A stretch of DNA of 37,024 bases from Patescibacteria group bacterium (lineage in GTDB: Bacteria; Patescibacteriota; Patescibacteriia; Magasanikbacterales; GWA2-37-8), in NCBI GenBank assembly GCA_018812905.1, contig JAHJCN010000103.1, positions 1 to 37,024 on the forward strand. Direction: 5' to 3'. Of the stretch, positions 776-34,743 are shown in pieces. The notes below the pieces were generated by a model. The model was given only the letters and a program-made list of their open reading frames with translations, searched no databases and was not told the DNA's origin. The translations under genes were made by a program, and so were the position numbers. Position 1 is the stretch's first letter. Every line of letters starts with the position of its first letter.

Positions 776-2032
776 ATGGGTGAAATTGGGGGTGTAAAAG
801 AACAAGGTCCGTCTAAAGAAAAGAAGTCAATTGAGATAATTTGTCGGGGCATTCTTAATGATATCCGTGAATTTAGCGCGATTGATTTTGCAAATTTTAA
901 TCCCGATGATCGGGAAGGAGTCGATAGGCTAATAGGCAAGATTCTTTCTAGTCCCGTATTTGATGCCGCTGTCTACAGAGATCTTAAAGAAGACAGCCCG
1001 TATCTTTGTAAATTTATGGGGCATGATCTGGGCAACTTAGCCACTGTTACAACCGGGAACGTCGGTTCGCTAAGAAAAAAAGAATCGACTGAAGGTAAAA
1101 TTAGAATTCTGGAAAATGTTATCCAGAGTTGGCCGGCGTATTCTCTAATTTTGGAAGATATTTGCCTTCGAGGCCTTGATAAAAGATATATTGATAAGAA
1201 ATTTTACAGAGATTTTAGCATCGAGGGTTTGGACGCTGCGCTTGATTATGTGCGTAAAAGGATTGAAGCGAATCTCGAAATTAAAAAATATAGATCTGAA
1301 AAATCAGAAGTGTTAAAAAAAAGCCCCGCATCTCATCTGGTAAGCGGTCGAGAGAGAGCTGATGTGTCGATTTTGCTGAAAAGAGTTTGCATTCCGACTG
1401 GCGGACGATTGGCGCTTGAGTCAAATGAAAAATTGATTGGCGTTCCTGGTGTGATTGTGAATGCCGTCTGTAACATAACCAGAAATGCCGCGGGTGAGTA
1501 TATCAAGCAGATTGTAAACGAAAATGGCGAGGTGATTGGTGAAGAGGAAAACGGCGCGAAAAATGTTGTGGTTGAGCAGATGATTAGGGAGGACGAGGAA
1601 TGGCAAAGATATATTGTTTTTAGAATTATTGACGATGGCCGGGGAATGAGTCCGGATTATCTGCAACCCGGCACAAAAAATTATATTTTTTTTGATGGCA
1701 GAAGTCACAGATTTAGCAGTGGTTATGGTTTGACGAATATGCCCGACCGCTTGCATTCCACAGAAGCCAAGTTACGTGTGTGGACTTTCGAACGTGATAA
1801 GGAGGCTTCAAAGCCGGCTTTTTATGATAGCTCTGGCGCCATGGAAAGAGCATGGCTTGAAGAGGCGACAAAAAAAGTGGGAATGGCCGAAGGTGACATA
1901 CGGGCCGAAGCTACTAGATTGCGTGAAGAATGGATAACAAAAGAAAGAGTGGAGCTCGAAGAACAACTTGGTTTTAGGCCCTCAACCGTTTTTGAAGTGT
2001 GGGGGCCAAAAATTTTGGAAAATAAAGAATAA
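776..2032 (+). CDS. Soluble histidine-kinase-like ATPase (HATPase_c), role unknown
   Basis: The 418-residue protein has no membrane segment or signal peptide. The C-terminal half carries a GHKL ATPase fold: an N-box-like stretch around residues 227-241 (VCNITRNAAGEY), a G1 box IIDDGRGM at 284-291 and a G2 box SSGYGLTNM at 314-322. About 145 residues earlier is GHDLGN (His83), which resembles the phospho-acceptor H-box of a dimerisation domain, so it may be a cytoplasmic sensor kinase. There is no receiver domain and no response regulator beside it. A roughly 80-residue charged tail follows the ATPase domain. It sits between valS and tyrS, starting one base after the valS stop and lacking a Shine-Dalgarno. 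The ATPase fold is well supported; the kinase role is inference, and a GHKL protein of another kind is possible. Confidence 0.7.
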   Translation: MGEIGGVKEQGPSKEKKSIEIICRGILNDIREFSAIDFANFNPDDREGVDRLIGKILSSPVFDAAVYRDLKEDSPYLCKFMGHDLGNLATVTTGNVGSLRKKESTEGKIRILENVIQSWPAYSLILEDICLRGLDKRYIDKKFYRDFSIEGLDAALDYVRKRIEANLEIKKYRSEKSEVLKKSPASHLVSGRERADVSILLKRVCIPTGGRLALESNEKLIGVPGVIVNAVCNITRNAAGEYIKQIVNENGEVIGEEENGAKNVVVEQMIREDEEWQRYIVFRIIDDGRGMSPDYLQPGTKNYIFFDGRSHRFSSGYGLTNMPDRLHSTEAKLRVWTFERDKEASKPAFYDSSGAMERAWLEEATKKVGMAEGDIRAEATRLREEWITKERVELEEQLGFRPSTVFEVWGPKILENKE

Positions 2033-2045
2033 TTTTTTATTTAAT

Positions 2046-3245
2046 ATGAAAACAAACACGGATACCAAAAAAATCGAAGAATTACTTAGCCGAGGTGTGG
2101 AAAATATTTATCCCAATGTTGATTTTTTGCGGGAAAGATTGCGGTCCGGCAAACAACTGACTCTTTACACCGGCTATGATCCTACAGCCAACACATTGCA
2201 TGTTGGCAATGGAATCACCATTCTAAAATTAAGACAATTTCAGGAATTGGGCCACAAAATTATTTTGCTCATCGGAGATTTCACCGGCATGATTGGCGAT
2301 CCAAGCGACAAAATGGCCGCGCGCAAAAAATTAACTCGCGAACAAGTTTTGGAAAACTGTAAAAATTACAGGGAACAGGCTTCTATCGTTCTGGATTTTC
2401 AGGGTGACAATCCCGTAGAAATTAAATACAACAGCGAATGGCTGGGCAAAATGAATTTTGGTGATGTGTTGGAATTAGCCAGTCATTTTACGGTACAAAG
2501 AATGATGGAGCGCGATATGTTTCAGCGCCGTCAAGAGGAAGACAAGCCGATCTATGTGCATGAATTTATGTACCCCATGATGCAAGCCTATGATTCCGTC
2601 GCTATGGACATTGATGGCGAAATCGGAGGCAATGACCAAACTTTCAACATGCTGGCGGGACGGGATTTGATGAAATCTTTAAAAAATAAAGAAAAATTTG
2701 TTTTGACCATGAAACTGCTCGCCGATGTCTCCGGCAAAAAAATGGGCAAGAGCGAGGGAAACATGGTGGCTTTTTCCGATGCTCCGGAAGATATGTTTGG
2801 AAAAGTAATGAGTTGGACCGATGATATGATAATAAGCGGTCTTGAACTATGCACGCGAATGCCGATGGGTGAAATTGCGACAATGGAAAATAAAATGAAG
2901 AAAGGCGCCAATCCGCGCGACATGAAATTGCTGTTGGCTTATGAAATTGTAAAAACATTTATTGGAGAAGAACAAGCCAAGCAAGCGCAAGAATATTTTG
3001 TCCACACATTCAGCAAAAAAGAAACCCCCGCGGAAATGCCGGAAGTCAAGCCGAGCGTTTATGACGTTGTGGCGGTTTTAGTTGAAGCAAAAATTTGCAA
3101 AAGCAAAACCGAAGCCAGGCACAATATTGATCAGGGGGGCGTAAAAATTAATGAGGAAAAAGTATCCGCCGAGAATTATACAGCCATAGTAAAACCGGGC
3201 GATGTTGTTCAAAAAGGCAGTAGGTTTTTTGCTCGAGTCAAATAA
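2046..3245 (+). CDS. tyrS: Tyrosyl-tRNA synthetase
   Basis: The 399-residue class I synthetase charges tRNA-Tyr. The HIGH equivalent is HVGN at residues 52-55 after YTGYDPTANT. The tyrosine-pocket segment YPMMQAYDSVAMD lies near 176-189, GGNDQ at 194-198, and the KMSKS equivalent KMGKS at 232-236. An S4 RNA-binding domain occupies roughly residues 335-395 (ICKSKTEARHNIDQGGVKIN). I chose ATG 2046 because the synthetase homology begins there. An in-frame start at 1968 would overlap the preceding gene by 65 bases and add 26 residues without family similarity. The leader just before the ATG is AT-rich without a Shine-Dalgarno. argS follows six bases after the stop. Confidence 0.96.
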   Translation: MKTNTDTKKIEELLSRGVENIYPNVDFLRERLRSGKQLTLYTGYDPTANTLHVGNGITILKLRQFQELGHKIILLIGDFTGMIGDPSDKMAARKKLTREQVLENCKNYREQASIVLDFQGDNPVEIKYNSEWLGKMNFGDVLELASHFTVQRMMERDMFQRRQEEDKPIYVHEFMYPMMQAYDSVAMDIDGEIGGNDQTFNMLAGRDLMKSLKNKEKFVLTMKLLADVSGKKMGKSEGNMVAFSDAPEDMFGKVMSWTDDMIISGLELCTRMPMGEIATMENKMKKGANPRDMKLLLAYEIVKTFIGEEQAKQAQEYFVHTFSKKETPAEMPEVKPSVYDVVAVLVEAKICKSKTEARHNIDQGGVKINEEKVSAENYTAIVKPGDVVQKGSRFFARVK

Positions 3246-3251
3246 TTTTTT

Positions 3252-4952
3252 ATGCTTAAAGAAAAAATAATCAATATCTTACGGGCTAACGGCATAATGG
3301 GCGAAGCTGAATTCGCGATTCCTCCGAAACCGGAAATGGGCGATTTGTCGCTTGTTTGTTTTGGCTTGGCTAAAGAGCAAAAGACAAGCCCGATAATACT
3401 CGCGAAAGATTTGGCACAAAAAATATCCGAAGTGGCTGACATACAAGGGGATATCGTGGAAAGAGTTGAGGCTGTCGGACCATACTTGAATTTCTTCATA
3501 AATCCTAAATTTTTGGCTGATTTTGTTTTTAAAGAGATTGGAAATAAAGAATTCGGGAAAAATGAAATGGGAAAAAGCAAAAAAATTATGGTTGAATATG
3601 CTCAACCCAATACTCACAAGGCATTTCATATCGGCCACTTGCGCAACATTATCACCGGAGAAAGCCTTGCCAGAATTTTTGAAAATAGCGGATACAAAGT
3701 CATTCGTACGAATTTTCAGGGTGATGTTGGTTTGCATATTGCCAAATGTTTGTGGGGCATCCAACAATCAATGCCCGAGTATGAAGCGGTGAAGAAAGAA
3801 AAAATTCAGGAAAAGGTTCTGTATTTGGGTCGCGTCTATGCCAAAGGCGGAATTGCCTACGAAGAAGATGAAAACGCAAAAAAAGAAATAGTTGAAATTA
3901 ATGAAAAAATTTACAATAAAGACAATGGATTGTTTAAAATTTACAAAGAAACCAGAAAGTGGAGTTTGGAATATTTTGATATAATATATGCGATGGTTGG
4001 AGCCAAATTCGATCGCCTATATTTTGAATCCGAAACTTTTGATGAAGGAAAAAAATTGGTATTGGAAAATTTGAAAAAAGGCATATTCAAAGAAAGTGAA
4101 GGAGCTGTTATTTTTGAAGGAGAAAAATACGGTCTGCATAATCGAGTTTTTTTGAACAGCAAGGGTCTTCCAACTTACGAAGCCAAAGATTTGGCTTTGG
4201 CTGAGATGCAATTGAAAGAGTATAACCCGGATGCCATTTTTCATGTGGTGGGCAAAGAACAAACCGAATATTTTAAGGTTTTATTCAAAGCCATTGAACA
4301 AGTGTTTCCTCAAAGCGTCGGAAAAGAAAACCATTTGATGTATGGCTGGGTGAGTTTGAAAGAAGGAAAAATGAGTTCGCGCACCGGCAATGTTGTGCTG
4401 GCCGAATGGCTTATTGAAGAAACGAAAAAGGCTGTTGCTGACGCGATGGTTGATCACGAGGTAAACGATAAGAAAAAAACAATTGAAAAAGTGGCTTTAG
4501 CCGCCATTAAATATTCTTTTTTGCGCACCGGCGCTCAAAATGATATTTTGTTTGATATAAAGGAATCAATAAGTTTAACCGGAGACAGTGGACCTTATTT
4601 GTTATATATTGTGGCACGCATAAATAGCATCTTGAAAAAAGCAAAAATGAAATTTAACAAATTTGAGCTGAAGAACATCTCTGAAATCCATCAGACTGAA
4701 AAAAAGTTATTGTTGGATATCGCCAATTACGCTGAAACGGCAAGAGGAGCCGCTGTAAAACATGATCCGTCAAAAATATCGCATTATCTGCTTAATCTGG
4801 CGCAAGATTTTAACGCGTTTTATGGTTCGTGTCCGGTCATAAAAGCAGAAGGAGATTTATTGTTTTTCCGACTCAATCTTATACGCGCCACGGCGAAAGC
4901 GATGACTGATGGTTTGAATCTTTTGGGTATTGATGTGGTGGGTGCGATGTAA
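3252..4952 (+). CDS. argS: Arginyl-tRNA synthetase
   Basis: The 566-residue class I synthetase charges tRNA-Arg. An N-terminal additional domain covers about residues 1-85 and includes PPKPEMGDLSL and VGPYLNFFIN. The HIGH motif is exact at 126-129 within QPNTHKAFHIGHLRNI. A KMSKS-like loop reads EGKMSSRTGNVV near residue 375. The DALR anticodon-binding domain forms the C terminus, ending in TAKAMTDGLNLLGID as in most bacterial ArgRS. Length is normal. It follows tyrS by six bases and belongs to a three-synthetase run with valS. The ATG is preceded by a T-rich tract and no Shine-Dalgarno. Confidence 0.97.
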   Translation: MLKEKIINILRANGIMGEAEFAIPPKPEMGDLSLVCFGLAKEQKTSPIILAKDLAQKISEVADIQGDIVERVEAVGPYLNFFINPKFLADFVFKEIGNKEFGKNEMGKSKKIMVEYAQPNTHKAFHIGHLRNIITGESLARIFENSGYKVIRTNFQGDVGLHIAKCLWGIQQSMPEYEAVKKEKIQEKVLYLGRVYAKGGIAYEEDENAKKEIVEINEKIYNKDNGLFKIYKETRKWSLEYFDIIYAMVGAKFDRLYFESETFDEGKKLVLENLKKGIFKESEGAVIFEGEKYGLHNRVFLNSKGLPTYEAKDLALAEMQLKEYNPDAIFHVVGKEQTEYFKVLFKAIEQVFPQSVGKENHLMYGWVSLKEGKMSSRTGNVVLAEWLIEETKKAVADAMVDHEVNDKKKTIEKVALAAIKYSFLRTGAQNDILFDIKESISLTGDSGPYLLYIVARINSILKKAKMKFNKFELKNISEIHQTEKKLLLDIANYAETARGAAVKHDPSKISHYLLNLAQDFNAFYGSCPVIKAEGDLLFFRLNLIRATAKAMTDGLNLLGIDVVGAM

Positions 4953-4976: not shown

Positions 4977-6278
4977 ATGAGGATATATTATCAATCGGAA
5001 ACAAAAAAAGCTTTGCGAAATTTTTCCGCCAGCGGTGTCGGTTTTTCTTTGCTTTGGGCGAAAAATATAGCTTTGGTTAAAAAAGAAGCCGCCCGTGTAA
5101 ATGTTGAACTGGGTTATTTGGATAAACAGATTGGAAATGCAATTAAAATAGCAGCACGAGAACTGATGAGGGGAAAATTTAATGATCAAATCGTTGTTGA
5201 TATGATTCAGGGAGGCGCCGGCACGTCAATGAATATGAATATTAACGAGGTGTTGGCTTCGCGAGCAACAGAGATTATGAAAAGAAGAAATAATGTACAT
5301 CCGCTGGAGCATGTAAATTTATCTCAGTCTACCAATGATGTGCTCCCCACTGCTCTGCGTATTACACTTCTCAAAATGTTGGATGATTTACTGGATTCTT
5401 TGTGGAAATATCGCAAAGAAATGGAATTGAAAGCCGATAGATTTAAGGATATAATAAAAGTTGGAAGAACTCATCTGCAGGATGCTGTTCCGATAAGTTT
5501 GGGGAGAGAGTTCGGCGCACAAGCCAGCGCCATAAAGGAAGATATAAAAAGATTAAATCTCATAAAGCGAGAGTTGTGTCGTGTTAATATCGGCGGGACG
5601 GCAGTCGGCACGATGGTCAATTCTTCTTCAAGGTATGCGGATACAATTGTTGGCAGATTGGCAAAATCCACTCGGTTTCCTTTGCGTCTCGATCAGGACA
5701 TGGTTTATTCCACGCAATACGCTGATTCCTTTTTTCACCTCAGTTCATTGCTTGCGATTCTAAGTTCAAATTTAATTAAATTTTTGAGCGACTTGCGTCT
5801 TCTTGCCTCCGGACCGCAAGCCGGAATAGGGGAGATAGCCTTTCCAACGTGCCAAAAAGGATCTTCGATTATGCCCGGAAAAGTGAACCCGGTGATGGCA
5901 GAGATGTTGTCTCAAATTGCTTATCAAGTGGCAGGCAATAATGTTACCGTTTTTTTAGCTGTTCAGGCCGGTCAGTTGGAATTAAATGTCATGATTCCGA
6001 TTATCGCGAAAAATTTATTTGAATCTTTAAAACTGCTTTCTAATGGTATAAATTTATTCACAAAATTTGGTCTGAGAGGAATCAAAGCCAACGGAGAGCG
6101 TTGTGAAGAACTGTTGTCAAAAAGCAAAGTTGGCATCACCGCGTTGTCCAAAAAAATAGGCTACGACAAGGCTGAAAAATTACTGCATGTTTCGGCCGTG
6201 GAAAAAATTGATTTAGACGAGTTAGTGGAAAGGGAGGGGCTTATGAGCCGTCAAGATTTTCTTAAATTATTACGATAA
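4977..6278 (+). CDS. aspA: Aspartate ammonia-lyase-like enzyme (fumarase/aspartase superfamily)
   Basis: The 433-residue protein belongs to the class II fumarase/aspartase superfamily. The motifs follow aspartase more than fumarase: QGGAGTSMNMNINEV at residues 78-92 (fumarases read GSGTQSNMN), NLSQSTND at 114-121, GRTHLQDAVPISLG at 163-176 (fumarases have THTQDA) and the signature GSSIMPGKVNPV at 295-306. The usual C-terminal domain is present (GITALSKKIGY to the end). Expected activity is reversible deamination of aspartate to fumarate and ammonia. The N terminus is about 20 residues shorter than in typical aspartases, starting at the segment that normally reads YYGxQT (here YYQSET). An in-frame stop upstream fixes ATG 4977. 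It opens the unusual metabolic run that continues to 13009. A related lyase with another substrate cannot be excluded. Confidence 0.8.
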   Translation: MRIYYQSETKKALRNFSASGVGFSLLWAKNIALVKKEAARVNVELGYLDKQIGNAIKIAARELMRGKFNDQIVVDMIQGGAGTSMNMNINEVLASRATEIMKRRNNVHPLEHVNLSQSTNDVLPTALRITLLKMLDDLLDSLWKYRKEMELKADRFKDIIKVGRTHLQDAVPISLGREFGAQASAIKEDIKRLNLIKRELCRVNIGGTAVGTMVNSSSRYADTIVGRLAKSTRFPLRLDQDMVYSTQYADSFFHLSSLLAILSSNLIKFLSDLRLLASGPQAGIGEIAFPTCQKGSSIMPGKVNPVMAEMLSQIAYQVAGNNVTVFLAVQAGQLELNVMIPIIAKNLFESLKLLSNGINLFTKFGLRGIKANGERCEELLSKSKVGITALSKKIGYDKAEKLLHVSAVEKIDLDELVEREGLMSRQDFLKLLR

Positions 6279-6280
6279 AT

Positions 6281-7378
6281 GTGTTATACAAAAAAATATT
6301 AAGGCCGATTGCTTTTAAAATTGACCCGGAGACAATTCATGACGTGGTTATCCAAAGTTTGCGCCATGCTTCTTCTGTTCCAATTTTCCCTTTTTTAATT
6401 AGGCGGTTTTCGCTTGTGCGTGATGAAAGCCTTAAGACAAGAATCGGCAATTTGGAATTTTTGAATCCGGTTGGTTTGGCGGCCGGCTTTGATAAGTTTA
6501 TCACAGCTCCCCAAGCCTATTCTATGTTCGGTTTTGGCTTTGCCGAACTTGGATCCATAACATGCAGTCCCTTATCAGGCAATCCGAAACCAAGACTCTG
6601 GAGGATACCTGATGACGAGGGGCTGATTGTATATCATGGCCTGGCCAACGGTGGTTCCGAACATGCTTTGAATAAAATGAGCGTTTTGGGAAAGCACAAC
6701 ATACCGTTGGGAATCAGCATCGCGCCGACAACAGGTTTGGAATTAAAAGATATGTCTGGTGATTATTTAAAAACTTTTTTGCGTCTCCATTCCTATGCCG
6801 ACTATATCACTCTAAATGTCAGTTGCCCCAATGTGGCATCGTGCGAAAAATTTGCGCAAGTTTCTTTCATTAAAGAATTGGCTGAAAAAATGCGTAAATT
6901 AACAAAAGAGCGTGGGATAAAAAAAGATATATTTATAAAAATAGGACCTGAATTTAATGATGATGACCTGGAACGAATAGTTGAATGCTGTGTGTCAAAT
7001 GAAATTACCGGGATTATAGCCATAAATTTGATTAAAGACAGAAATATCATCACGCCAAAAAGTTCAGTTGAAAAAATGAATCATCCCGGCGGGTTATCTG
7101 GCGGTCTTTTGCGCAAAAAAAGTAATGAGGTAATTAAAAAGATATATTGTTTGGCCGGCGATAAATTGAAAATTATCGGACTTGGTGGAATATTCACCGC
7201 TGAAGACGCGTATGAAAAGATAAAATGCGGAGCGTCAATTGTGCAAATAATTACCGGTTGGATTTACGGAGGACCGTTTCAGGCGAAAAAAATCAATTTG
7301 GGATTAGCGAATCTCATCAAGAAAGATGGTTATAAAAATATTACCGAGGCCGTTGGGTCAAGTTCTAAAATTTGTTAA
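6281..7378 (+). CDS. pyrD: Class 2 dihydroorotate dehydrogenase-like flavoprotein with altered active site
   Basis: The 365-residue protein has the layout of membrane-associated class 2 DHODH: N-terminal LRPIAFKIDPETIHD, then NPVGLAAGFDK at 62-72, GNPKPRLWRIPDDE at 100-113, NVSCPN at 179-184, FIKIGPEFNDDDL at 218-230, GGLSGGLLRK at 270-279 and GASIVQIITGWIYGGP at 317-332. These support FMN binding in a TIM barrel. The substrate site differs. The catalytic base position, Ser in class 2, is Cys182 as in class 1. The first Asn of the GFNN motif is Ala122, and the Thr of the ATNTT segment is Leu250. It starts at GTG 6281, two bases after the lyase stop; the overlapping ATG at 6279 is out of frame and soon hits a stop. 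Pyrimidine synthesis is possible, but another substrate is quite possible. Confidence 0.75.
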   Translation: MLYKKILRPIAFKIDPETIHDVVIQSLRHASSVPIFPFLIRRFSLVRDESLKTRIGNLEFLNPVGLAAGFDKFITAPQAYSMFGFGFAELGSITCSPLSGNPKPRLWRIPDDEGLIVYHGLANGGSEHALNKMSVLGKHNIPLGISIAPTTGLELKDMSGDYLKTFLRLHSYADYITLNVSCPNVASCEKFAQVSFIKELAEKMRKLTKERGIKKDIFIKIGPEFNDDDLERIVECCVSNEITGIIAINLIKDRNIITPKSSVEKMNHPGGLSGGLLRKKSNEVIKKIYCLAGDKLKIIGLGGIFTAEDAYEKIKCGASIVQIITGWIYGGPFQAKKINLGLANLIKKDGYKNITEAVGSSSKIC

Positions 7379-7387
7379 AATAAATAT

Positions 7388-8392
7388 ATGAAGTCCAATT
7401 TCAAAGCTTGGGAAATTAAAGTGGAAGACTTCCCGTTTAAAGGTAGTTTTAAAGATAAATTATTTTTTTTAATCGGGTTTGGAATCTTGGCCCCCTCAAC
7501 ACACAATACTCAACCCTGGAGATTCCGGGTAAAAGATGATAAGGTTTTAATATATGCCAATTCGGAAAGAGAATTGCCCGTGGGAGACAGAGACAAGCGT
7601 TTTCTGTATTTTAGTCTTGGAGCGGCAATGGAAAATATTTTAATTGCCGGCAAACATTATAATTTTTTATTTGAAACGAGCTATCCAAAGTCGTTGGGCG
7701 AGCCGATTGTTTTAACCGCCAAAATCGGCGACATCGTTGACAGCGAAGAGCTAATATATCATATCGTCAATCGTATCTCCAATAGGCATATTTTCAAAGA
7801 TATCTTGCCCGAAGAAAGAGTATTGAAGTTGGTGGGTGATATGAGAGAAGAGGGTGCGCGCGTGGATATTGTGATGGGCGGTGAACAAAAAGAAAGATTG
7901 GTGGATTTGATAAAACGTACAACCCATAGCGTGATGAGCGAACCGAGTTTTAGAAAAGAACTTGCCGGTTATGTAAAGACAAATATCACCGGTTCTAAGT
8001 TTGGTATGCCGGCGTATGTTATGGGGGTTCCCACGGTAATTTCTTTGCTTGTTCCGACCGTTTTGAAATACGTTGATGTTGAAAGTTTTAAGACAAAAAA
8101 ACAAGAAGGAGCAATGAATGCTCCTGTGTTTGGCGTTATAAGCACCGAAGAAGATGAGTTAAAAGATTGGGTAAAAGCGGGGCAATTATTCCAGAAAATT
8201 GCATTATTGGCAACAAAATACGGCCTGTCCACTCATCCAATGGCCGCGCCCTTGCATACCGAAACTGGCTATAGAGAATTACAGTCAATTATAAACACAA
8301 ATTTTCGGCCGCAATTTTTATTTCGTTTGGGGTATGGGACGGAAAAGGCGTGGCATGGTCCGAGAATGACAGTTGAAGATTGTGCCTATTAA
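7388..8392 (+). CDS. Acg-type nitroreductase-family flavoprotein
   Basis: The 334-residue protein resembles the Acg (Rv2032) branch of the nitroreductase fold. ILAPSTHNTQPWRF lies at residues 33-46, followed by SERELPVGDRDKR and a GAAMENILIA helix. RISNRHIFKD lies mid-protein and the C-terminal half contains GLSTHPMAAPLH, where the second flavin-contact region is expected. Family members bind FMN and reduce diverse substrates, although some Acg proteins have lost nitroreductase activity. It is encoded nine bases after the DHODH-like gene and ten bases before the fusion gene. The same type of domain is joined to a ThiF domain in Mycobacterium Rv1355c-like proteins; here the ThiF part is carried by the next gene. 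The true substrate is unknown. Confidence 0.8.
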   Translation: MKSNFKAWEIKVEDFPFKGSFKDKLFFLIGFGILAPSTHNTQPWRFRVKDDKVLIYANSERELPVGDRDKRFLYFSLGAAMENILIAGKHYNFLFETSYPKSLGEPIVLTAKIGDIVDSEELIYHIVNRISNRHIFKDILPEERVLKLVGDMREEGARVDIVMGGEQKERLVDLIKRTTHSVMSEPSFRKELAGYVKTNITGSKFGMPAYVMGVPTVISLLVPTVLKYVDVESFKTKKQEGAMNAPVFGVISTEEDELKDWVKAGQLFQKIALLATKYGLSTHPMAAPLHTETGYRELQSIINTNFRPQFLFRLGYGTEKAWHGPRMTVEDCAY

Positions 8393-8402
8393 TATTTATT
8401 TT

Positions 8403-11400
8403 ATGAAAAATTTTGAGTTTTATACGGAGTTCGACGACCATGATTTGGTAGTTGAAATTGATGAGCCAAAAGCAGGTTTAAAGGGCTTTATAGCGATTCA
8501 TAGAATTAATGAAAATTATCCGGCGTTGGGGGCTACAAGATTGTGGAAATATAATTGCGAGGAAGATGCTCTTCGTGATGCTCTGAGATTATCAAGGCTG
8601 ATGAGTTACAAGTCTGCGGCTGCCGGCTTGCCCTATACCGGTGCCAAGGCCGCTCTAATGGCTGATCCCGCCGGACTGGAGAATCGGGAATTATTTTTTA
8701 GAACTTACATTGAAAAAGTCAATGAACTGGGCGGAAAATTTGTTACAGGCACGGATGTAGGGTTGAGCGACGATGATCTCAAAGTAATGTCCGATCATTC
8801 TGCTTTTGTTATCGGTTATGGTGTTCCGGCCGCATATTACACTGCCTTAAGCGTGTTAAGTGGTGTGAAGGCGGGTTTGAGGGAAGTGTTTGGAAACGAT
8901 GACCTTTCGGTCAGACGCTTTGCGATTCAGGGTTTGGGTAAAACAGGTTTCGATTTGCTTAAATTGTTGCACTCATCCGGCGCGAAAATTTTTGTGGCCG
9001 ATATAAACGAAACTATTTTGGAACGAGTTAAGAAAGAATTTCCAAGTATTTTAATTGTAAATCAGAACGACATACACAAACAACAGGTGGATGTTTTTTG
9101 TCCTTGCGCGCTTTCCGGCTCAATAAATAATGCGACAATCAAAGAGCTTAATTGTAAAATTATAGCTGGCGCCGCCAATAATCAGCTTCAAGATAAGAAA
9201 TTGGGATGGGAATTGTTAGAAAGAAATATTTTGTATGCGCCGGATTACATTTGCAATGCCGGTGGAATAATTAGCGTTGTGGATCAGTTTGAAAACAAGA
9301 TTCATGATAATGATCGAATATTGAAGAAAATTGATGGCTTAAAGAAGAGCTTAGTGTCGGTCTTTGGAGAGGGAAAACAAAAAAGACAGCCAACCTGCAT
9401 GGTGGCAGACGCCTCATTTGAGACCATCGTTTCATCAAAGCGAAACGCATCAAATTTCATGCGTCCTTTCGAGCAATTGGAAGAAGTATATTACAAATGC
9501 CGCAAAAATCAGCCAGAGCTTAACAAACGCATGCTGGAAGCATATCATTCCGTGGACGGAGAAGAGGTGGCGAATATTTATCAAAATGCCGTGGAGCTTA
9601 AACTTATTGAAAAAGCAGAAAAAAAGTTTTTAAAATATTTTCATTTTATAGCGGAAAGAGTTCCGGCATATAAAGATTTTTTGAAAAAGAATAAAATCGA
9701 TCATGAAAAAATATTAACTCCATCGGATTTTCATCATATTCCGTGGATTGATAAAAAGAACTACTTAGAACATTATCCCTTTTCTTCGTTGTGTGTTGAT
9801 GGGCGCATGGAAGAGAATCAGATTGTTTCCGTCAGTTCCGGTTCAACAGGGAAACCTCATTTTTGGCCTCGAGGAACTTTGCAGGAAATTGAAACAACAA
9901 TGACTTTTGAAACGGCCTTTCAATCCATTTTGGGGTTAAATAGAAAAAAACGCACGCTTTTGATTCAATGTTTCGCGCAAGGAATGTATATCGGAGGTAT
10001 TTTCACAATAAATGCCGGCATGCGTATCGCATGCAAGGGATACAAATTGATATTGGCCACGCCGGGAAATCATAAAGGGGAAATTTTGCGCATTCTTACG
10101 GAATTGAGATCTGAGTTTAGCCAGATAATTATTGCGGGGTACTCGCCATTAATAAAAGATGTGGTTGACCTGGCTGCCGATGCCAGCTTTCCGTTCTCCA
10201 GCACAAACATAAAATTTATGTTTTCCGGCGAGCTTGTGTCTGAATCTTGGCGTGACATGATGTGCGAAGCCATCAGCGCGGACAATGTCCATACCTTCGC
10301 TTTTAATGCCTATGGCACGGCTGATGCCGCTCTGTTGGCACACGAAACTCCAGCTTCGATATTTGTAAAAAGATTTTGTTTAAGTCATCCCGACGTATTA
10401 GATACAATATTACCGCACAGAGATTTTTCCTTGGTCCAATATAATCCTTATCTAAGATACTTTGAAGTCGACGAAGGAGAATTGATATTCAGCGTTATGA
10501 GCGGGACTCCCATGATACGCTATAACATCCATGATATCGGCGGTATAATTCCATATTCTCAAACCATCTCATTATTCGCCGATCGCGGTCTTGATTTGGA
10601 TAAGGAAGTGCTTGATCAAACGCTGCAAAAGCCATGGCATCTTCCTTTCTTATATATTTATGGACGCAGTGATCACACCATTGTACTGCATGGCGCCAAT
10701 ATTTACCCGGAAAATATTAAATACGCGCTGGAAAATTCCGCGCTTGCCGATTATGCTTCCGGTAAATTTGTAATGCAAAAAATTGAAGACAAGAATTTGA
10801 AACCGATTTTCGATTTGCATTTGGAATTAAAAAATAACATAGAGCCGAGCGACGAATTAAATAAAAAATTTCGTTCTATAATTACGGAAAATCTGCGAAA
10901 AATAAATAGGGAATATAATGTTATCTATGAATATGGAGATGAAGTCGTTGGTCCGCATATAACTCTTTATCCTTTTGGCGACAAAAAACATTTCAGCGAC
11001 GACATAAAACAACGATGGGTTCCGCGCAAAACCTTATCAAAACAAAATAACGCGAATGAGTGTAAGCCGACTATTTTTTTTGAAGGAACCTACACCGCGG
11101 AAGATGTTCTTCGTTTTCAGGCAGATAACAGTATCAAAGAAGTTAGAGATATCTACGGGCAACAGATGAGTGAATTGTTTGAAATCCGCAATCCTTCTTT
11201 GCGGCACACGGCTCAATACCAAGGGGAGCTGGAAAAATTTCTTTGCGCGAGACAGACTTGCGGCAGTTCTGGCAACTGGATATATTTCCCTTGGAATGGA
11301 ATTTTTGTACATACATTGACTAAAGATGATTATTTTCGACTGCGAACCAATCGAAATAAAAATTTGATCACGGAGGAGGAGCAAACCGCTTTGTCTCAAA

Positions 11401-12131
11401 GTACCGTGGCCATAGCCGGTCTATCGGTTGGAAGCGGTATAGCTGTTAATTTGGCCTATGCGGGCATTGCCAGCACTTTGCGCCTGGCGGAGTTTGATAA
11501 TCTTGAAACTACAAATTTAAATCGCGTGCGAGCAGGATTAGCTGACGTGGGAAAATCGAAATCGTCAATTACCGCCCATCAGGTTTTTGAAATAGATCCC
11601 TATTTGAATGTTCAGTCTTTTAACGAAGGGTTAACAGGCCAAAATTTATCACAATTTATTCTATCCGAACCGCGTCCCAAAGTAATTTTTGAAATAATTG
11701 ACAGTTTTGAGATTAAAATAAAAATGCGCCTTATGGCAAGAGAAGCGGGGATTCCCGTGATCATGCTCGCGAATTTGGGAGATAGTTTATTGGTGGACAT
11801 TGAACGTTTCGATTTGAATAGGAATCTGTCGCTGTTTAACGGCGTGATAGGTGATACCCCGGAAAACATTCTTCGAAATCCGGATATTACGGAAGCGGAT
11901 AAACATAAATACGCAGTGGAATTGGTGGGAATAGAGAATGTTCCTTCTCGTGCTCTGGCCTCGGTGAGAGAAATTAACAATACTCTAGTCGGTCGGCCGC
12001 AATTAATGAGTACTGTTGCCGTTGGCGGTGGAATCGGCGCGTATTTGGCCAGGAAAATAATCTTGGGAGAAACACTAAAAAGCGGGCGAAAAATAATGCG
12101 GTTTGACGATTTGTTTTGTAATAATTCATAA
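8403..12131 (+). CDS. Three-module fusion: Leu/Phe-type amino-acid dehydrogenase, PaaK-like adenylating ligase, ThiF/E1-like domain
   Basis: One uninterrupted 1242-residue frame holds three enzymes. Residues 1 to about 300 resemble leucine/phenylalanine dehydrogenases: AGLKGFIAIH, catalytic lysines in MSYKSAAAGL (Lys70) and TGAK (Lys82), TGTDVG (Asp118), the nucleotide loop GLGKTG at 177-182 and CNAGGIISV at 284-292. Residues about 405-880 resemble phenylacetate-CoA ligases: RVPAYKDFL, the phosphate loop VSSGSTGKP at 477-485, NAYGTAD at 635-641 and YGRSDHTIVLHGANIYPENI at 753-772. Residues about 890-1242 resemble the ThiF half of Rv1355c-like proteins: WIYFPWNGIFVHTL, the nucleotide loop GLSVGSG at 1006-1012 and LAEFDNLETTNLNRV at 1028-1042. 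No zinc CxxC pairs are evident there. Expected steps are redox deamination or amination, acyl adenylation and a second adenylylation. ATG 8403 is preferred over 8373, which overlaps the previous gene and adds ten unrelated residues. Each module is clear; the joint function is unknown. Confidence 0.85.
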   Translation: MKNFEFYTEFDDHDLVVEIDEPKAGLKGFIAIHRINENYPALGATRLWKYNCEEDALRDALRLSRLMSYKSAAAGLPYTGAKAALMADPAGLENRELFFRTYIEKVNELGGKFVTGTDVGLSDDDLKVMSDHSAFVIGYGVPAAYYTALSVLSGVKAGLREVFGNDDLSVRRFAIQGLGKTGFDLLKLLHSSGAKIFVADINETILERVKKEFPSILIVNQNDIHKQQVDVFCPCALSGSINNATIKELNCKIIAGAANNQLQDKKLGWELLERNILYAPDYICNAGGIISVVDQFENKIHDNDRILKKIDGLKKSLVSVFGEGKQKRQPTCMVADASFETIVSSKRNASNFMRPFEQLEEVYYKCRKNQPELNKRMLEAYHSVDGEEVANIYQNAVELKLIEKAEKKFLKYFHFIAERVPAYKDFLKKNKIDHEKILTPSDFHHIPWIDKKNYLEHYPFSSLCVDGRMEENQIVSVSSGSTGKPHFWPRGTLQEIETTMTFETAFQSILGLNRKKRTLLIQCFAQGMYIGGIFTINAGMRIACKGYKLILATPGNHKGEILRILTELRSEFSQIIIAGYSPLIKDVVDLAADASFPFSSTNIKFMFSGELVSESWRDMMCEAISADNVHTFAFNAYGTADAALLAHETPASIFVKRFCLSHPDVLDTILPHRDFSLVQYNPYLRYFEVDEGELIFSVMSGTPMIRYNIHDIGGIIPYSQTISLFADRGLDLDKEVLDQTLQKPWHLPFLYIYGRSDHTIVLHGANIYPENIKYALENSALADYASGKFVMQKIEDKNLKPIFDLHLELKNNIEPSDELNKKFRSIITENLRKINREYNVIYEYGDEVVGPHITLYPFGDKKHFSDDIKQRWVPRKTLSKQNNANECKPTIFFEGTYTAEDVLRFQADNSIKEVRDIYGQQMSELFEIRNPSLRHTAQYQGELEKFLCARQTCGSSGNWIYFPWNGIFVHTLTKDDYFRLRTNRNKNLITEEEQTALSQSTVAIAGLSVGSGIAVNLAYAGIASTLRLAEFDNLETTNLNRVRAGLADVGKSKSSITAHQVFEIDPYLNVQSFNEGLTGQNLSQFILSEPRPKVIFEIIDSFEIKIKMRLMAREAGIPVIMLANLGDSLLVDIERFDLNRNLSLFNGVIGDTPENILRNPDITEADKHKYAVELVGIENVPSRALASVREINNTLVGRPQLMSTVAVGGGIGAYLARKIILGETLKSGRKIMRFDDLFCNNS

Positions 12132-12133
12132 TC

Positions 12134-13009
12134 ATGCGCGATGCTGAAAAAAAGTTGTTAAAATCCATTGGCGTTCGCGGTGTTGCCCCGCGAACGGCAC
12201 GAATTTGGAAATACAACCTAAATTATGTTATAATAGGTTCAGGTCCGGCATTATTGCTATTACATGGAGCAAATATAGGATGGGGAATGTGGTATAGAAA
12301 TATCGTGGAATTAGCGCGATATTTCACTGTGATTGCCGTGGATTTGCCCGGCTCCGGATATTCATCGCATATAAATTTTTTTGAAACGAAAATAGAAGAG
12401 GATTTTGCCAGAGCTTTTGAGAAGTTTATAAAAAAAGTGGGTTTGGAAATTCCTTTTGTGGCGGGGCATTCCTTTGGCGGTTGGTTGGCAGCCAAATTAT
12501 TTCTAAATGGAAAAAAATTTAAAAAATTAGTATTTATTGATTCCGTGGGGTTCAGCGGATTTGTGCCACCGCAGTATCGTTTGATCAGTTTTAAGCCCTT
12601 CGCTCTTTTTCTATCCAAATTCGCCGTTAAACCAACGCGAGAAAACATGAAAGAATTTTTGTCCAGTGTTTTATCTGACAAGACAAAACTCGCCGATGAA
12701 TTGGTGGATTACTATTTTGAAGGGCTGTGTTTCGAAACGGTTTCTCATCCTCTTTTATTTATGCATGCAATGACATCAAAAGGAGCCATTAAGAAAAGTT
12801 TTTTATTGAACAAGAGCGAATTAAAAAGCATGCCCCCGACCCTCACTATTTGGGGCGATAATGATTCGTTAATGCCTCTGCGTAAAAGTCTTGAAATGAT
12901 CAACTGTATGCCGAACAGGCAATTGGAAATTTGTTCTGCCGGGCATGTGCCTCCCCTGGAACAAGCGGATTTTGTAAATAAACGAATAATTTTATTTTTG
13001 TTAAAATAA
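12134..13009 (+). CDS. Alpha/beta hydrolase
   Basis: The 291-residue protein has a complete alpha/beta-hydrolase signature: the oxyanion region LLLLHGANIGWGMW near residues 37-50, DLPGSGYSS, the nucleophile elbow GHSFGGW near residue 116, an acid position in TIWGDNDSLMP, and the catalytic His in SAGHVPPLEQ near the C terminus. A lid of about 90 residues lies between the nucleophile and the acid. No signal peptide is visible. It starts two bases after the fusion gene stop, so it probably belongs to the same transcript and could release or hydrolyse an ester, thioester or lactone made by that enzyme. That role is inference; the family is too broad to predict a substrate. Confidence 0.85.
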   Translation: MRDAEKKLLKSIGVRGVAPRTARIWKYNLNYVIIGSGPALLLLHGANIGWGMWYRNIVELARYFTVIAVDLPGSGYSSHINFFETKIEEDFARAFEKFIKKVGLEIPFVAGHSFGGWLAAKLFLNGKKFKKLVFIDSVGFSGFVPPQYRLISFKPFALFLSKFAVKPTRENMKEFLSSVLSDKTKLADELVDYYFEGLCFETVSHPLLFMHAMTSKGAIKKSFLLNKSELKSMPPTLTIWGDNDSLMPLRKSLEMINCMPNRQLEICSAGHVPPLEQADFVNKRIILFLLK

Positions 13010-13031: not shown

Positions 13032-14639
13032 ATGGGTATTTTTTCTCAATTTCAATTGCCCATTCTTTTGATATGCGTCGGTTTGAATTCTCTTTTGGCC
13101 ATTTTGGTTTTAAGAAGCAATAGGCGCAGTCACACAAATATTATCTTCGCTTCATTGAGTTTGATAATTTCCATTTGGCTGGTGATTATGTATCTGGCTA
13201 TCAACCCAAGACTTGATTTGTATTGGGCTAGGGCCAGTATTATTGTCGCTACACCAATGAGTGTCTGCTTTTTTTTATTTTCCTATGCTTTGCCGGCCAC
13301 AAGATTGGTTTTAAAAAAATGGCATTTACTAGCCATATTTATTCTAATTGAAGTAGTTGCTGTTATAAATTCTTCCTCCTTAGCTTTTAGGGGAATTGAA
13401 ATTATTGGCGGTAAAGCGCAGATTGTGGCCGGGCCGGGCATGATGCCGTTCATGATAGTCACTACCTTTTTTAGTGTCGCCGCCATTTTCTTTTTGTTTA
13501 AAAAGTCCATATCAGGAGGAAGAAAAGCAAAGAATCAAATACGATTGATTTTATTTGGCATGTTTGTAATGTTGGCTTTAATAATTATATCCATACCTCT
13601 TCCCATAATTTTATTTAAAAACAGTTCATTTGTTCCGCTTGCGCCTTTTTATACCCTAATTTTCTTGACAACCACAGCTGTTTCAATTCTTAAATATAAT
13701 TTGTTCGACATCAGAATATTAGCCACCGAAATGTTGGTGGCCGTATTGGTTTTTATTCTTTTAATTGAAGGAATTTTTTCAAAATCTATTGTTTTTATCG
13801 CGTTAAAGATATTTTTTGCCATTATCTTGGGTATCCTTGGTGATTTGTTGGTAAAAAGTGTAAATAATGAGATAAAAAGACGCAGGGAAATTTCACATTT
13901 ACTGCGTTCTCTTGAGTTGGCTAATACGCGTCTGAAAAAAATGGATAAACAAAAGTCCGAATTTCTTTCCATAGCCGCACATCAGTTGCGCACGCCTCTT
14001 TCGATAGCTAAGGGTTTCATTGAGCTTATCAAAGACAAAGCTTACGGTAAAACAACAAAAGAGATGGACAAAACTCTGGATAAAATGAACCAGAGCAACG
14101 AGCGTTTAATAAATTTAGTGGATGAATTTTTAGATATTTCAAGGATAGAACAGGGTCGTAATGGCATTAAAGCGGCGAAGATTGATCTTGGCAAGATTGT
14201 GGACGATGTTGTCGAAGAGTTTAAAGGTGAAGCCCGAAGCAAAGATATCAAGCTGTCGCGAGACGACAGTTCAAAACTGCCTTTAGTTGAAGCAGATATT
14301 GATAAAATTCGCCATGTGTTATTTAATTATTTGGACAATGCGGTGAAGTATAACAGTGGCAACATAATTCAAGTGAAGGCGTCAATCAAAGGTCCGGGAG
14401 TCTCTTTGGTTGTAAAAGATAATGGAATCGGTTTTGCAAAAGACGAAACACACAACCTGTTTGATAAATTTTATCGGGCTTCTAATGTTAGAGGTATCAA
14501 TGTTAACGGCACCGGTCTGGGGCTCTATGTTTGTAAAAAATTTGTTGAAGCCCACAGTGGACGAGTTTGGGCGAAAAGTCGCGGCATCAACAAAGGCAGT
14601 GAGTTTGGCTTTTGGATTCCTTTTAAGCACAGGAAATAG
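13032..14639 (+). CDS. Membrane sensor histidine kinase with N-terminal 7TM-like region
   Basis: The 535-residue protein starts with about eight hydrophobic segments over residues 8-275, resembling the 7TM sensor region of some histidine kinases. A short coiled linker (290-310) leads to the dimerisation domain with FLSIAAHQLRTPLS, giving His317 as phospho-acceptor. The ATPase domain has an N-box (NYLDNAVKYN), G1 (VKDNGIGF) and G2 (GTGLGLYVCKKFVEAHSG). It has no receiver domain and no response regulator is encoded nearby, so its partner is elsewhere or absent. It is the last gene of the unusual run, has its own Shine-Dalgarno and ends just before the bactofilin promoter. Sensing a product of the upstream genes is possible but unproven. 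Confidence 0.9.
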   Translation: MGIFSQFQLPILLICVGLNSLLAILVLRSNRRSHTNIIFASLSLIISIWLVIMYLAINPRLDLYWARASIIVATPMSVCFFLFSYALPATRLVLKKWHLLAIFILIEVVAVINSSSLAFRGIEIIGGKAQIVAGPGMMPFMIVTTFFSVAAIFFLFKKSISGGRKAKNQIRLILFGMFVMLALIIISIPLPIILFKNSSFVPLAPFYTLIFLTTTAVSILKYNLFDIRILATEMLVAVLVFILLIEGIFSKSIVFIALKIFFAIILGILGDLLVKSVNNEIKRRREISHLLRSLELANTRLKKMDKQKSEFLSIAAHQLRTPLSIAKGFIELIKDKAYGKTTKEMDKTLDKMNQSNERLINLVDEFLDISRIEQGRNGIKAAKIDLGKIVDDVVEEFKGEARSKDIKLSRDDSSKLPLVEADIDKIRHVLFNYLDNAVKYNSGNIIQVKASIKGPGVSLVVKDNGIGFAKDETHNLFDKFYRASNVRGINVNGTGLGLYVCKKFVEAHSGRVWAKSRGINKGSEFGFWIPFKHRK

Positions 14640-14707: not shown

Positions 14708-15199
14708 ATGTTATTTAGAAAATCTTCTCGCGCGGTTATAGACAACATTGAAGAAATGCCGGATGAAGAAATGATGATGGAACAAACAGATGATGTGGAT
14801 ACCGTAGTCGGTCCATCTGTGAGCGTTGAAGGGGATTTTGCGTCTGAAGGAAACATTATTGTAAAAGGCACTGTCACTGGCAGTGTGCACACCAGCAAAT
14901 TTCTTTTGGTGGAACCGGGAGCGAAGATAGTGGCTAATATTCGCGCCGGAAATGCGCAAATAAGCGGAGAGGTAAAAGGCAACATTAAAGTGAAGGAATC
15001 TTTAGAAATCGGATCTACGGCCAAAATATTGGGTGATATTGAGGCGCAGTCTTTGGCAATAGAAGCCGGCGCCATATTGTATGGCCGTGTGGTGATGCCC
15101 GGTATGAATTTGGAAGAGGGGCGCAAGCGAGGAAGAGGAAGAAGGGCCGCGGTAGTTGAAGAAATTGCTGAGGAAGACGATGAAGCTTTGAATGAATAG
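14708..15199 (+). CDS. Bactofilin-family cytoskeletal protein
   Basis: The 163-residue protein has an acidic, Met-rich N-terminal segment, a central right-handed beta-helix-like repeat region and a basic/acidic tail. The repeat region (about residues 32-135) shows the bactofilin pattern: VGPSVSVEGDF, GNIIVKGTVTGSV, LLVEPGAKIVANIRAG, AQISGEVKGNI, LEIGSTAKILGDIEAQSLAIEAGAILYG. Bactofilins self-assemble into filaments that organise cell-wall or shape machinery. It has its own promoter. The tail (KRGRGRRAAVVEE) is charged and probably unstructured. The stop overlaps a possible upstream start of the next gene. Confidence 0.9.
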   Translation: MLFRKSSRAVIDNIEEMPDEEMMMEQTDDVDTVVGPSVSVEGDFASEGNIIVKGTVTGSVHTSKFLLVEPGAKIVANIRAGNAQISGEVKGNIKVKESLEIGSTAKILGDIEAQSLAIEAGAILYGRVVMPGMNLEEGRKRGRGRRAAVVEEIAEEDDEALNE

Positions 15200-15227
15200 C
15201 GGATTTGCTGTAAATGGAATAGTTATT

Positions 15228-15992
15228 ATGTACGTCTACATATACGATAATTTTGTTCGTGATCGGAAATACAATTCACTTATAAAAGCGCTTGAAATCC
15301 GGCTAACCGACTATGGCATTGCCGGAAAAATTTTATATTTGCACAACTACATAGATTCTAAGGCAATCATTGACGAAGAGATGAGGCGGGGAGCCAGTAC
15401 TATAGTTATTGTTGGCAATGATAGAACTTTTGGGCAGGTGCTTTCTCGTAGCGCTGGGTGCGAATGTGTTTTTGGTTTTATTCCGGTTGGTCCGGAAAAT
15501 ACAATCGCGGATATTTTGGGTATTCCAATCGGTTTAGAGGCGGCCGATGTTTTAGCGAGACGTCGAAAAGAAAAATTGGACGTGGGTTGGGTGAACGGCA
15601 GATATTTTGTTACTCAATTACATGTAATGCCGGCAAAAATCAGCGTGCTGTATGATGAAAAATTTAAAGTTTCGTCCACCGGGCTTATGGAAATGGTGGT
15701 ATGTAATTTCAAGCCGTTTTATTTCAAAAGATCCAAACGAGACAATGATTACCAGGTTGTTCACCCCCAAGACGGCAAGTTGGAGGCTTTTTTACGGCCA
15801 TTGACAAAAAAGGGTTGGCGGGGGTATAGCTATGAAGAGCCAAGCATTTTTCCATTTGAAGAAATGGAAATATCAGGCGACGAAGCTTTCTCCGTGGAGG
15901 CTGATGGAAAAGTGACAAAGGAAGTTAAAATTACAATAAAATTGGCCAGGAATAAGATTAATATGGTGGTTGGTAGGAACAGGAAGTTTTAA
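15228..15992 (+). CDS. Diacylglycerol-kinase/NAD-kinase-fold protein, divergent
   Basis: The 254-residue protein resembles the catalytic domain of lipid kinases (DAGK/YegS/LCB5). A beta-strand start (MYVYIYDNFV) is followed by RGASTIVIVGNDRTFGQVL, where the family normally has GGDGT, and then by GFIPVGPENTIADILGIP, matching the usual IPLGTGNDFARxLGIP. The substrate-side beta-sandwich follows (VGWVNGRYFVTQ, EFLRPL-like and ISGDEAFSVEADG). The nucleotide loop is altered (GND for GGD), so activity is uncertain. I prefer ATG 15228 because the fold begins there; ATG 15192 would add 12 residues and overlap the bactofilin gene by eight bases. A strong terminator overlaps its stop codon. Confidence 0.65.
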   Translation: MYVYIYDNFVRDRKYNSLIKALEIRLTDYGIAGKILYLHNYIDSKAIIDEEMRRGASTIVIVGNDRTFGQVLSRSAGCECVFGFIPVGPENTIADILGIPIGLEAADVLARRRKEKLDVGWVNGRYFVTQLHVMPAKISVLYDEKFKVSSTGLMEMVVCNFKPFYFKRSKRDNDYQVVHPQDGKLEAFLRPLTKKGWRGYSYEEPSIFPFEEMEISGDEAFSVEADGKVTKEVKITIKLARNKINMVVGRNRKF

Positions 15993-23976: not shown

Positions 23977-24011
23977 AAAAGACCTCGATCGTTCGATCGA
24001 GGTCTTTTTTT
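23977..24011. terminator. Bidirectional terminator
   Basis: A stem of up to 15 bp, AAAAGACCTCGATCG with CGATCGAGGTCTTTT, has a short TT loop and T-runs on both strands. It serves the DUF5666 gene and, on the other strand, the 760-residue gene whose stop it touches. Confidence 0.92.
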
Positions 24012-33642: not shown

Positions 33643-34743
33643 ATGTTTAGGAGATTAACTTTCATTTCTTTTGTCGTGGCGGCCGTCCTGCTCACCGGCG
33701 CGTCCTGCATCACTACTAAAACCGCCTCGGGGCCGGTTGGCATGTTTCGTTCGCTGGATAAGGGTGAAACCTGGAAGCAAATTTCGGCCATGCCCACGCC
33801 CACGGGAGTGCAAAGCATCGGAAGTCTGAATATTTTTCGCATTTACGATGATCCAAACGATGTTAACGCCATGTACATTGGCACGCGCGGTCAGGGTCTC
33901 TATTATACCTATGACAATGGCGACGCGTGGAGAGTTGCGCCGGCTTTGGCCGGAAAATTTATTTACGGTCTTGTAGTTGATCCTTATGATAAATGCAATG
34001 TCTATGTGAGCGACGGTCCGCATATTTACAAGACTGAAGATTGTACGCGCACATGGAATTTGGTATACACGGAAGAGAGGCCGGCCGAACGGCTTGTTTC
34101 TTTAACAATGGATTTTAAAGATCGCAATGTGCTTTATGGCGCGGAGGTTGGCGGTGATATTTTGAAATCCGAAGATGGCGGGCGAAATTGGAGAGTAATT
34201 AAACGTTTTGGTTTTAATTTGCAATATATAATTGCCGATCCCAATGTTCCGGATCGCGTGTATGTGGCTTCGTACAGGAATGGGTTGTACCGAACGGACA
34301 ATGGTGGACAGAATTGGCTGGAATTAAACGCGGGTTTGGATACCTTTAGCGGAAGCAAGAATTTTTCTCGCTTGGTGTTGAATCCAGCGCAAAGAGACAG
34401 TCTGTTCTGGATCAGCAAATATGGCATTCTGCGCTCCGATGATGCCGGCGCGTCTTGGAAAGAAATACCGCTCATCACGCCTCCGGGTAGCGTAAACATC
34501 TATGGTTTCGCCATTAACCCCAAAAATCAAAAGGAAATATATTACACGGCCACCATTTTGGGAGATAAAAATGTGCACGTGCGTTCCACTTTTTATATCA
34601 CCACCGATGGCGGATCTTCTTGGGTGACCAAAAAGCTCCCCACCAATACAATACCCACGGCCATTCGCATGCACCCGGAAGAGAACAATGTGCTTTTTAT
34701 GGGTTTCACGGATTTACAACAACAAGCGGCTACAACATTATAA
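33643..34743 (+). CDS. BNR/Ycf48-like beta-propeller lipoprotein
   Basis: The 366-residue protein begins with a signal peptide (RRLTFISFVVAAVLLTGAS) ending in a lipobox-like Cys at residue 23, so it is probably lipid-anchored outside the cell. The rest is a propeller with repeated Asp-box units: FRSLDKGETWKQI, YYTYDNGDAWRV, YKTEDCTRTWNLV, LKSEDGGRNWRVI, YRTDNGGQNWLEL, LRSDDAGASWKEI and YITTDGGSSWVTK. These SxDxGxxW-type motifs are found in sialidases, VPS10 domains and the photosystem factor Ycf48. Catalytic sialidase residues are not evident, so a binding or assembly role is more likely. The lipobox is imperfect at -3. frr follows 15 bases later. Confidence 0.85.
   Translation: MFRRLTFISFVVAAVLLTGASCITTKTASGPVGMFRSLDKGETWKQISAMPTPTGVQSIGSLNIFRIYDDPNDVNAMYIGTRGQGLYYTYDNGDAWRVAPALAGKFIYGLVVDPYDKCNVYVSDGPHIYKTEDCTRTWNLVYTEERPAERLVSLTMDFKDRNVLYGAEVGGDILKSEDGGRNWRVIKRFGFNLQYIIADPNVPDRVYVASYRNGLYRTDNGGQNWLELNAGLDTFSGSKNFSRLVLNPAQRDSLFWISKYGILRSDDAGASWKEIPLITPPGSVNIYGFAINPKNQKEIYYTATILGDKNVHVRSTFYITTDGGSSWVTKKLPTNTIPTAIRMHPEENNVLFMGFTDLQQQAATTL

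Follow-up and report, generated by a model that had tools for sequence, protein, structure and literature searches.

A three-enzyme fusion protein of a patescibacterial genome belongs to a conserved operon that may make and sense an oxazolone-like signal

The locus described here raises the question of what a single polypeptide joining an amino-acid dehydrogenase, a PaaK-like adenylating ligase and a ThiF/E1-like domain could be doing in Patescibacteria, a group of very small bacteria with little biosynthetic capacity and few cultured members. The protein, of 1242 residues, is encoded at positions 8403–12131 (+) of contig JAHJCN010000103.1, whose 37,024 nucleotides constitute the stretch analysed (hereafter, the window) and which is contig 68 of a 0.99 Mb assembly (GCA_018812905.1, Magasanikbacterales), 96% complete. 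An earlier note on this DNA had drawn attention to the joining of three enzymes in one polypeptide. That note missed the conserved operon in which the fused gene lies, together with genes for a flavin mononucleotide (FMN) nitroreductase and a seven-transmembrane (7TM) histidine kinase, and the fact that ThiF and nitroreductase make up a characterised oxazolone-forming pair. We consider it probable that the window holds a six-function signalling cassette, with three of the functions fused, which makes an amino-acid-derived oxazolone-like signal sensed by the 7TM kinase; the exact product is presumed, as is its being a diffusible signal.

The fused reading frame is real, and the single polypeptide is in itself a minor, local curiosity. 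The frame runs from an ATG at 8403 with zero internal stops (an alternative TTG start 30 bases 5′ of it would run into the preceding gene), and family searches locate the three modules in the order that the earlier note had given. The first, a Leu/Phe/Trp-dehydrogenase-like deaminase (8403–9437, residues 1–345), matches the Pfam models ELFV_dehydrog_N and ELFV_dehydrog, both over the cut-off, and leucine dehydrogenase in the PDB (E = 2e-72), and its Lys70, Lys82 and Asp118, which that note had singled out, fall in the alignment at the positions of the two catalytic Lys and the catalytic Asp in leucine dehydrogenases. Fold and catalytic residues are also common to the tryptophan dehydrogenase ScyB, although the module scores 263 bits against NF035922 (ScyB), under the cut-off of that family, and differs from both kinds of enzyme in its Gly116 and in being fused to a ligase. 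This Gly was found in 17/17 of the aligned dehydrogenases from the Candidate Phyla Radiation (CPR), the leucine dehydrogenases having Ala. It suggests a larger pocket, and the neighbouring positions are mixed, so that an attempt to deduce the amino-acid substrate from pocket residues led to no assignment.

The second module (9600–11042, residues ~400–880) had been described as PaaK-like, and a search against Pfam had been proposed as a check. Such a search retrieved the ELFV models and the ThiF superfamily but no Pfam model for the ligase, whose PaaK nature is supported instead by a match to TIGR02155 (E = 6e-13) and by an AlphaFold model (55 sequences; predicted local distance difference test, pLDDT, 90) that finds PaaK2/PaaK1 as its best PDB folds (E = 1e-22), followed by 2-hydroxyisobutyryl-CoA ligase, ClxA and the amide synthetase McbA. 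With the ANL ligases PaaK, ClxA and McbA it has in common the predicted fold and the adenylation motif, while it is ~15% identical to the solved members and shares an operon with ThiF; its putative role is to form an amide. The third module (11055–12131, residues 885–1242) is a TrzS/Rv1355c-type ThiF cyclase, in which residues 880–1237 match NF005901, the Rv1355c family, over its first half (E = 5e-87); the score of the whole protein falls under the family cut-off because the second half sits in a separate gene. The SSGSTG loop of the ligase and the GLSVGSG and NLNR motifs of the ThiF part, both noticed earlier, are present and conserved among relatives.

The link with oxazolones comes from the ThiF module and from the gene preceding the fusion. 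A ThiF protein and a nitroreductase-family flavin oxidase turn N-acyl amino acids into oxazolones, as reported for P. rubra OxzB and for mycobacterial TyzB/TyzC and TrzS, that is, Rv1355c (PMC10404671, PMC12856293). The window ThiF has R984, N985, K1053, D1100, K1105, R1109 and P1199–L1201 in common with TrzS homologues, D1100 matching by motif the Asp shown to be essential in TrzS. Beyond the ATP site, W959, W964, R984–N985, D1132/E1134/R1135/D1137 (VDIERFD) and P1199–L1201 (PQL) are common to it and to the Rv1355c proteins of Mycolicibacterium and Rhodococcus plasmids. The FMN nitroreductase (7388–8392, +), of the Acg/Rv3131 family and related to the half of TrzS that is a flavin oxidase, is the presumed desaturase; it matches the second half of NF005901 as well as the Acg family, with APSxxNxQPW as a shared motif. 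Membership of the ThiF superfamily could also suggest an E1-like activator of a small protein modifier, the fusion being then a protein-conjugation device. However, the module scores far better with Rv1355c/TrzS than with MoeB/ThiF/UbaA, none of the alignment positions conserved to 85% or more among the CPR ThiF proteins is a Cys, so that the canonical ThiF/MoeB zinc or catalytic cysteines are not encountered, and none of the scanned genes of the operon could be recognised as encoding a modifier, all of which makes such a device very improbable.

As regards the acyl group of an oxazolone, no acyltransferase of the OxzA/TyzA/TrzA type was found among the scanned genes of the window operon, and the FeeM-type acyltransferase model gave zero matches in any ligase locus. 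In addition, the host genome yielded no match for ketoacyl synthase (14/14 control genomes have one) and none for CoaE (present in all 10 bacterial controls), which makes its own supply of fatty acyl-coenzyme A (CoA) unlikely.

The operon is not peculiar to this genome. In a survey of 380 genomes of the phylum, a ligase–ThiF query matched in 80; 61 loci were read (the window and 60 fetched), 55 of them with the ligase, and in 46 of these 55 a ThiF gene lay at most five genes from it on the same strand. The exact order of the window, namely nitroreductase, dehydrogenase, ligase, ThiF, alpha/beta hydrolase and histidine kinase, was found in five relatives (L045, L046, L059, L230, L231), where each function has its own gene and neighbouring genes lie close together or overlap slightly. 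The hydrolase (12134–13009, +) is cassette-specific, being found in those five and in L079, and is fused to the nitroreductase in L069. The joint chemistry that the earlier note had attributed to the polypeptide (deamination, acyl adenylation and a second carboxylate adenylation) is plausible, but the fusion is not essential to it. That note had also held that homologues always encoded by separate genes would speak against its proposal. Separate genes are mostly what was found: no second three-way fusion appeared among the loci examined, and the closest case is a dehydrogenase–ligase fusion (L079). ThiF is fused to the nitroreductase in L068 and an acyltransferase to ThiF in L208, and such repeated fusion of neighbouring genes is consistent with a single pathway. 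Apparent extra fusions in G368, G638 and G661 were discarded, their DNA revealing stops or separate genes.

The want of a second three-way fusion could be taken to indicate that the single frame arose by chimeric assembly or by an accidental join, the remainder being ordinary amino-acid metabolism, and so could the affinities of the modules: the dehydrogenase and the ThiF are closest to L045/L046 (50–60%), as is the nitroreductase, whereas the ligase module has its nearest relatives outside the host family, being closest to a Wirthbacteria ligase (L056; 43% versus 36%). Yet the gene order is identical to that of the five relatives, two in-frame chimeric joins are improbable, and the L079 and L068 fusions come from other genomes. 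An artefactual or chance join, which the earlier note had foreseen as a possible objection, is hardly credible, and the differing affinity of the ligase suggests that a module was exchanged within the fusion. A further arrangement, in L233 (G423), consists of two tandem ligase–ThiF pairs ahead of one 7TM kinase. In cyanobacteria the ligase is common, but without adjacent ThiF, nitroreductase or 7TM kinase, according to a named-genome search that used 13 of the 55 ligases as queries. These lone cyanobacterial genes (L112–L184) are 36–40% identical to the window ligase and often divergent from a conserved pair encoding ~560 and ~720 residues. A literature search retrieved no description of such a system in Patescibacteria. 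The operon is a conserved, undescribed combination in which a deaminase and a ligase would replace the acyl-CoA supply to oxazolone-type ring formation, wired to a 7TM receptor kinase; we regard it as a variant of oxazolone biosynthesis and of synthase/receptor-kinase signalling.

The deaminase itself is interchangeable. The 46 ligase–ThiF loci contain a dehydrogenase in 20 cases, an aromatic amino acid ammonia-lyase (PF00221) in 8 and a class I aminotransferase in 3; the dehydrogenase and the ammonia-lyase co-occur in 0 loci, and the nitroreductase is found in 28/28 of those carrying either. The ammonia-lyases display NGDNQD/ADNQD, with the Gln form of the specificity motif, plus the SH motif, pointing to Tyr/Phe and away from His as the likely substrate, with lyase and aminomutase both compatible with these motifs. 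The ligase tree splits by deaminase type with 2 changes (mean 7.1, minimum 4, in 2000 shuffles), and four families hold both types, so the ligase follows the enzyme that would make its substrate. It is mainly because of this clustering that the ligase is thought to activate the deaminated acid.

These data also have to be set against the proposal that the product, while still a signal, is a different one, with the ligase forming an aryl- or 2-oxoacyl-CoA, or the corresponding amide, and with ThiF adenylating a compound other than an N-acyl amino acid. The fold of the ligase resembles that of CoA ligases just as closely, ligase and kinase loci lacking ThiF exist, and the 2-oxo acids expected from the dehydrogenase and the aryl acrylates expected from the ammonia-lyase differ from the fatty acyl groups of known oxazolones. 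However, the ThiF retains the TrzS residues outside the ATP site listed above, the nitroreductase is present wherever the dehydrogenase or the ammonia-lyase is, and the lack of a CoaE match in the host argues, though not decisively, against a CoA thioester. Such a product therefore appears doubtful, and an oxazolone-like compound is preferred.

The presumed receptor of this compound is the histidine kinase encoded downstream of the hydrolase (13032–14639, +), made of an N-terminal 7TM sensor (PF16927; 13032–13766), which varies with the cassette, and a HisKA/HATPase half (13929–14639), which varies with the host family. A kinase of this type lies downstream in 44 of 48 testable ligase loci and, over the 380 genomes, PF16927 occurs in 46/54 of those with the ligase versus 119/326 of those without it (p = 1e-11). 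Receiver-only regulators are found near the cassette in many loci. The sensor was modelled as seven long helices (pLDDT 92); its fold similarity to the 7TM bundles of G protein-coupled receptors is weak (best E = 5e-4) and was not accepted as homology. Where the ligase is lacking, the kinase is preceded in 8 loci by a shorter ThiF together with a FeeM/LuxI-type acyltransferase, in 2 by the acyltransferase alone, in 4 by ThiF together with a methyltransferase, and in others by a Methyltransf_20-like gene. Moreover, LuxI-type PF00765 was found in 6/380 genomes, and in 5/6 it adjoins the 7TM kinase or a ThiF gene preceding the kinase. Loci L190, L192, L194–L198 and L201, with a ThiF of 260–386 residues, a FeeM/LuxI-like acyltransferase, the 7TM kinase and no evident nitroreductase, would represent an OxzA-like branch. 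Directly 5′ of other 7TM kinases lie a DUF362 protein (L211:3257–4393) and Methyltransf_20-like proteins (L216:6777–7727, L220, L222, L227), all of them candidate synthases.

A nearest-neighbour comparison over 87 kinases indicated, indirectly and by sequence, that the sensor half is exchanged together with the cassette. The nearest neighbour had the same cassette in 54/68 cases by the sensor half versus 32/68 by the kinase half (p = 2e-4), or 44/50 versus 22/50 without the unassigned class (p = 3e-6), whereas sharing of the host family was reversed (20/58 by sensor, 46/58 by kinase; p = 9e-7). These tests count related sequences as independent, but relatedness by itself would hardly make the two halves of a protein behave in opposite ways. 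The clearest case concerns L046 and L226, from one genus, whose flanks (tyrosyl- and arginyl-tRNA synthetase, bactofilin and diacylglycerol-kinase-like genes) are conserved (72–94%). Their kinase halves are mostly 78–95% identical and their sensor halves 15–33%, and the five genes from nitroreductase to hydrolase in L046 are swapped in L226 for a single gene of 346 codons. By analogy, this pattern is what allelic signal/receptor systems look like. The replacing gene (L226:6881–7921, G022) has a weak semialdehyde-dehydrogenase-like match in an NAD domain and may be another signal synthase; in L229, too, a gene resembling it stands ahead of the kinase.

The compound could instead be an antimicrobial, a host-directed metabolite or an envelope component, with the kinase sensing its effect or another cue and regulating its production. 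Biosynthetic operons frequently have their own two-component regulators. Furthermore, the tryptazolones known so far are mostly found associated with the cells, and their role has been called unresolved (PMC12856293). On the other hand, sensor and synthase are swapped jointly, the kinase half and the flanks being kept, and LuxI/FeeM-type synthases hold the same position ahead of the same kinase, so that a role other than signalling seems unlikely.

Besides the non-independence of the sequences compared, several observations weigh against an oxazolone-like signal. Arg540 and Gln651 of TrzS are apparently not conserved in the window nitroreductase (the numbering is approximate), and the known oxazolone desaturases, TrzS among them, depend on O2, which some CPR habitats may lack. 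No recognised deaminase lies nearby in 15/46 of the ligase–ThiF loci; 119 sampled genomes have the 7TM kinase without the ligase, with other or unknown genes ahead of the kinase in those examined; and the loci that pair ligase and kinase without ThiF imply a product class broader than oxazolones of this kind.

The proposed pathway would proceed in six steps. The dehydrogenase would strip the amino group from an amino acid to give a 2-oxo acid, which the ligase would adenylate and attach, through its amino group, to another amino acid, the putative acceptor, yielding an N-acyl amino acid without CoA. To judge from the characterised relatives, the ThiF module would then adenylate the carboxylate of this N-acyl amino acid and close the oxazolone ring, and the nitroreductase would desaturate it. 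The hydrolase may trim or inactivate the product, and the 7TM kinase would sense it and signal, in many loci, via the receiver-only regulators. As in OxzAB, TyzACB and TrzAS (Rv1356c–Rv1355c), a homologous ThiF cyclase and an FMN nitroreductase-family desaturase are adjacent in the operon; in contrast to them, the operon of the window has a PaaK-fold ligase and a deaminase instead of a GNAT-type acyltransferase, three of its genes are fused, and a 7TM histidine kinase is added. It resembles CqsA/CqsS, agr and ComQXPA in that synthesis genes adjoin the gene of a multi-pass membrane histidine kinase whose sensor half varies with them, although here the enzymes are unrelated, the sensor is of the PF16927 7TM type, the regulators nearby are receiver-only and the diffusible signal is putative.

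It seems to us evenly poised whether many Patescibacteria carry a communication locus of this sort, with one 7TM kinase, exchangeable cassettes and matching sensor halves, a major branch of which would make oxazolones from amino acids alone, without fatty acids or CoA. If so, chemical communication of a kind not yet described would exist in bacteria whose genomes are very small, and such a built-in system would place communication among the functions that Patescibacteria keep. What bacterial oxazolones do is, according to the group behind their characterisation, a major unresolved question (PMC12856293), and a receptor kinase encoded and exchanged with an oxazolone-type synthase offers a direct route to testing a signalling role, the sensor halves that follow the cassettes being ready-made ligand/receptor pairs for tests in laboratory hosts.

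In the host family, the insertion site of the cassette is fixed, and it is flanked in the window by tyrS and argS on the left (1968–4952, +) and by bactofilin and diacylglycerol-kinase-like genes on the right (14708–15992, +). The interval from argS to the cassette (4977–7378) encodes a lyase of the aspartase/fumarase family and a dihydroorotate dehydrogenase of class 2, neither of which is found at the L045/L046 site. Farther away, the window encodes two possible surface proteins, one of 760 residues with weak propeller-like matches (24010–26292, −) and one with Sortilin/BNR repeats (33643–34743, +).

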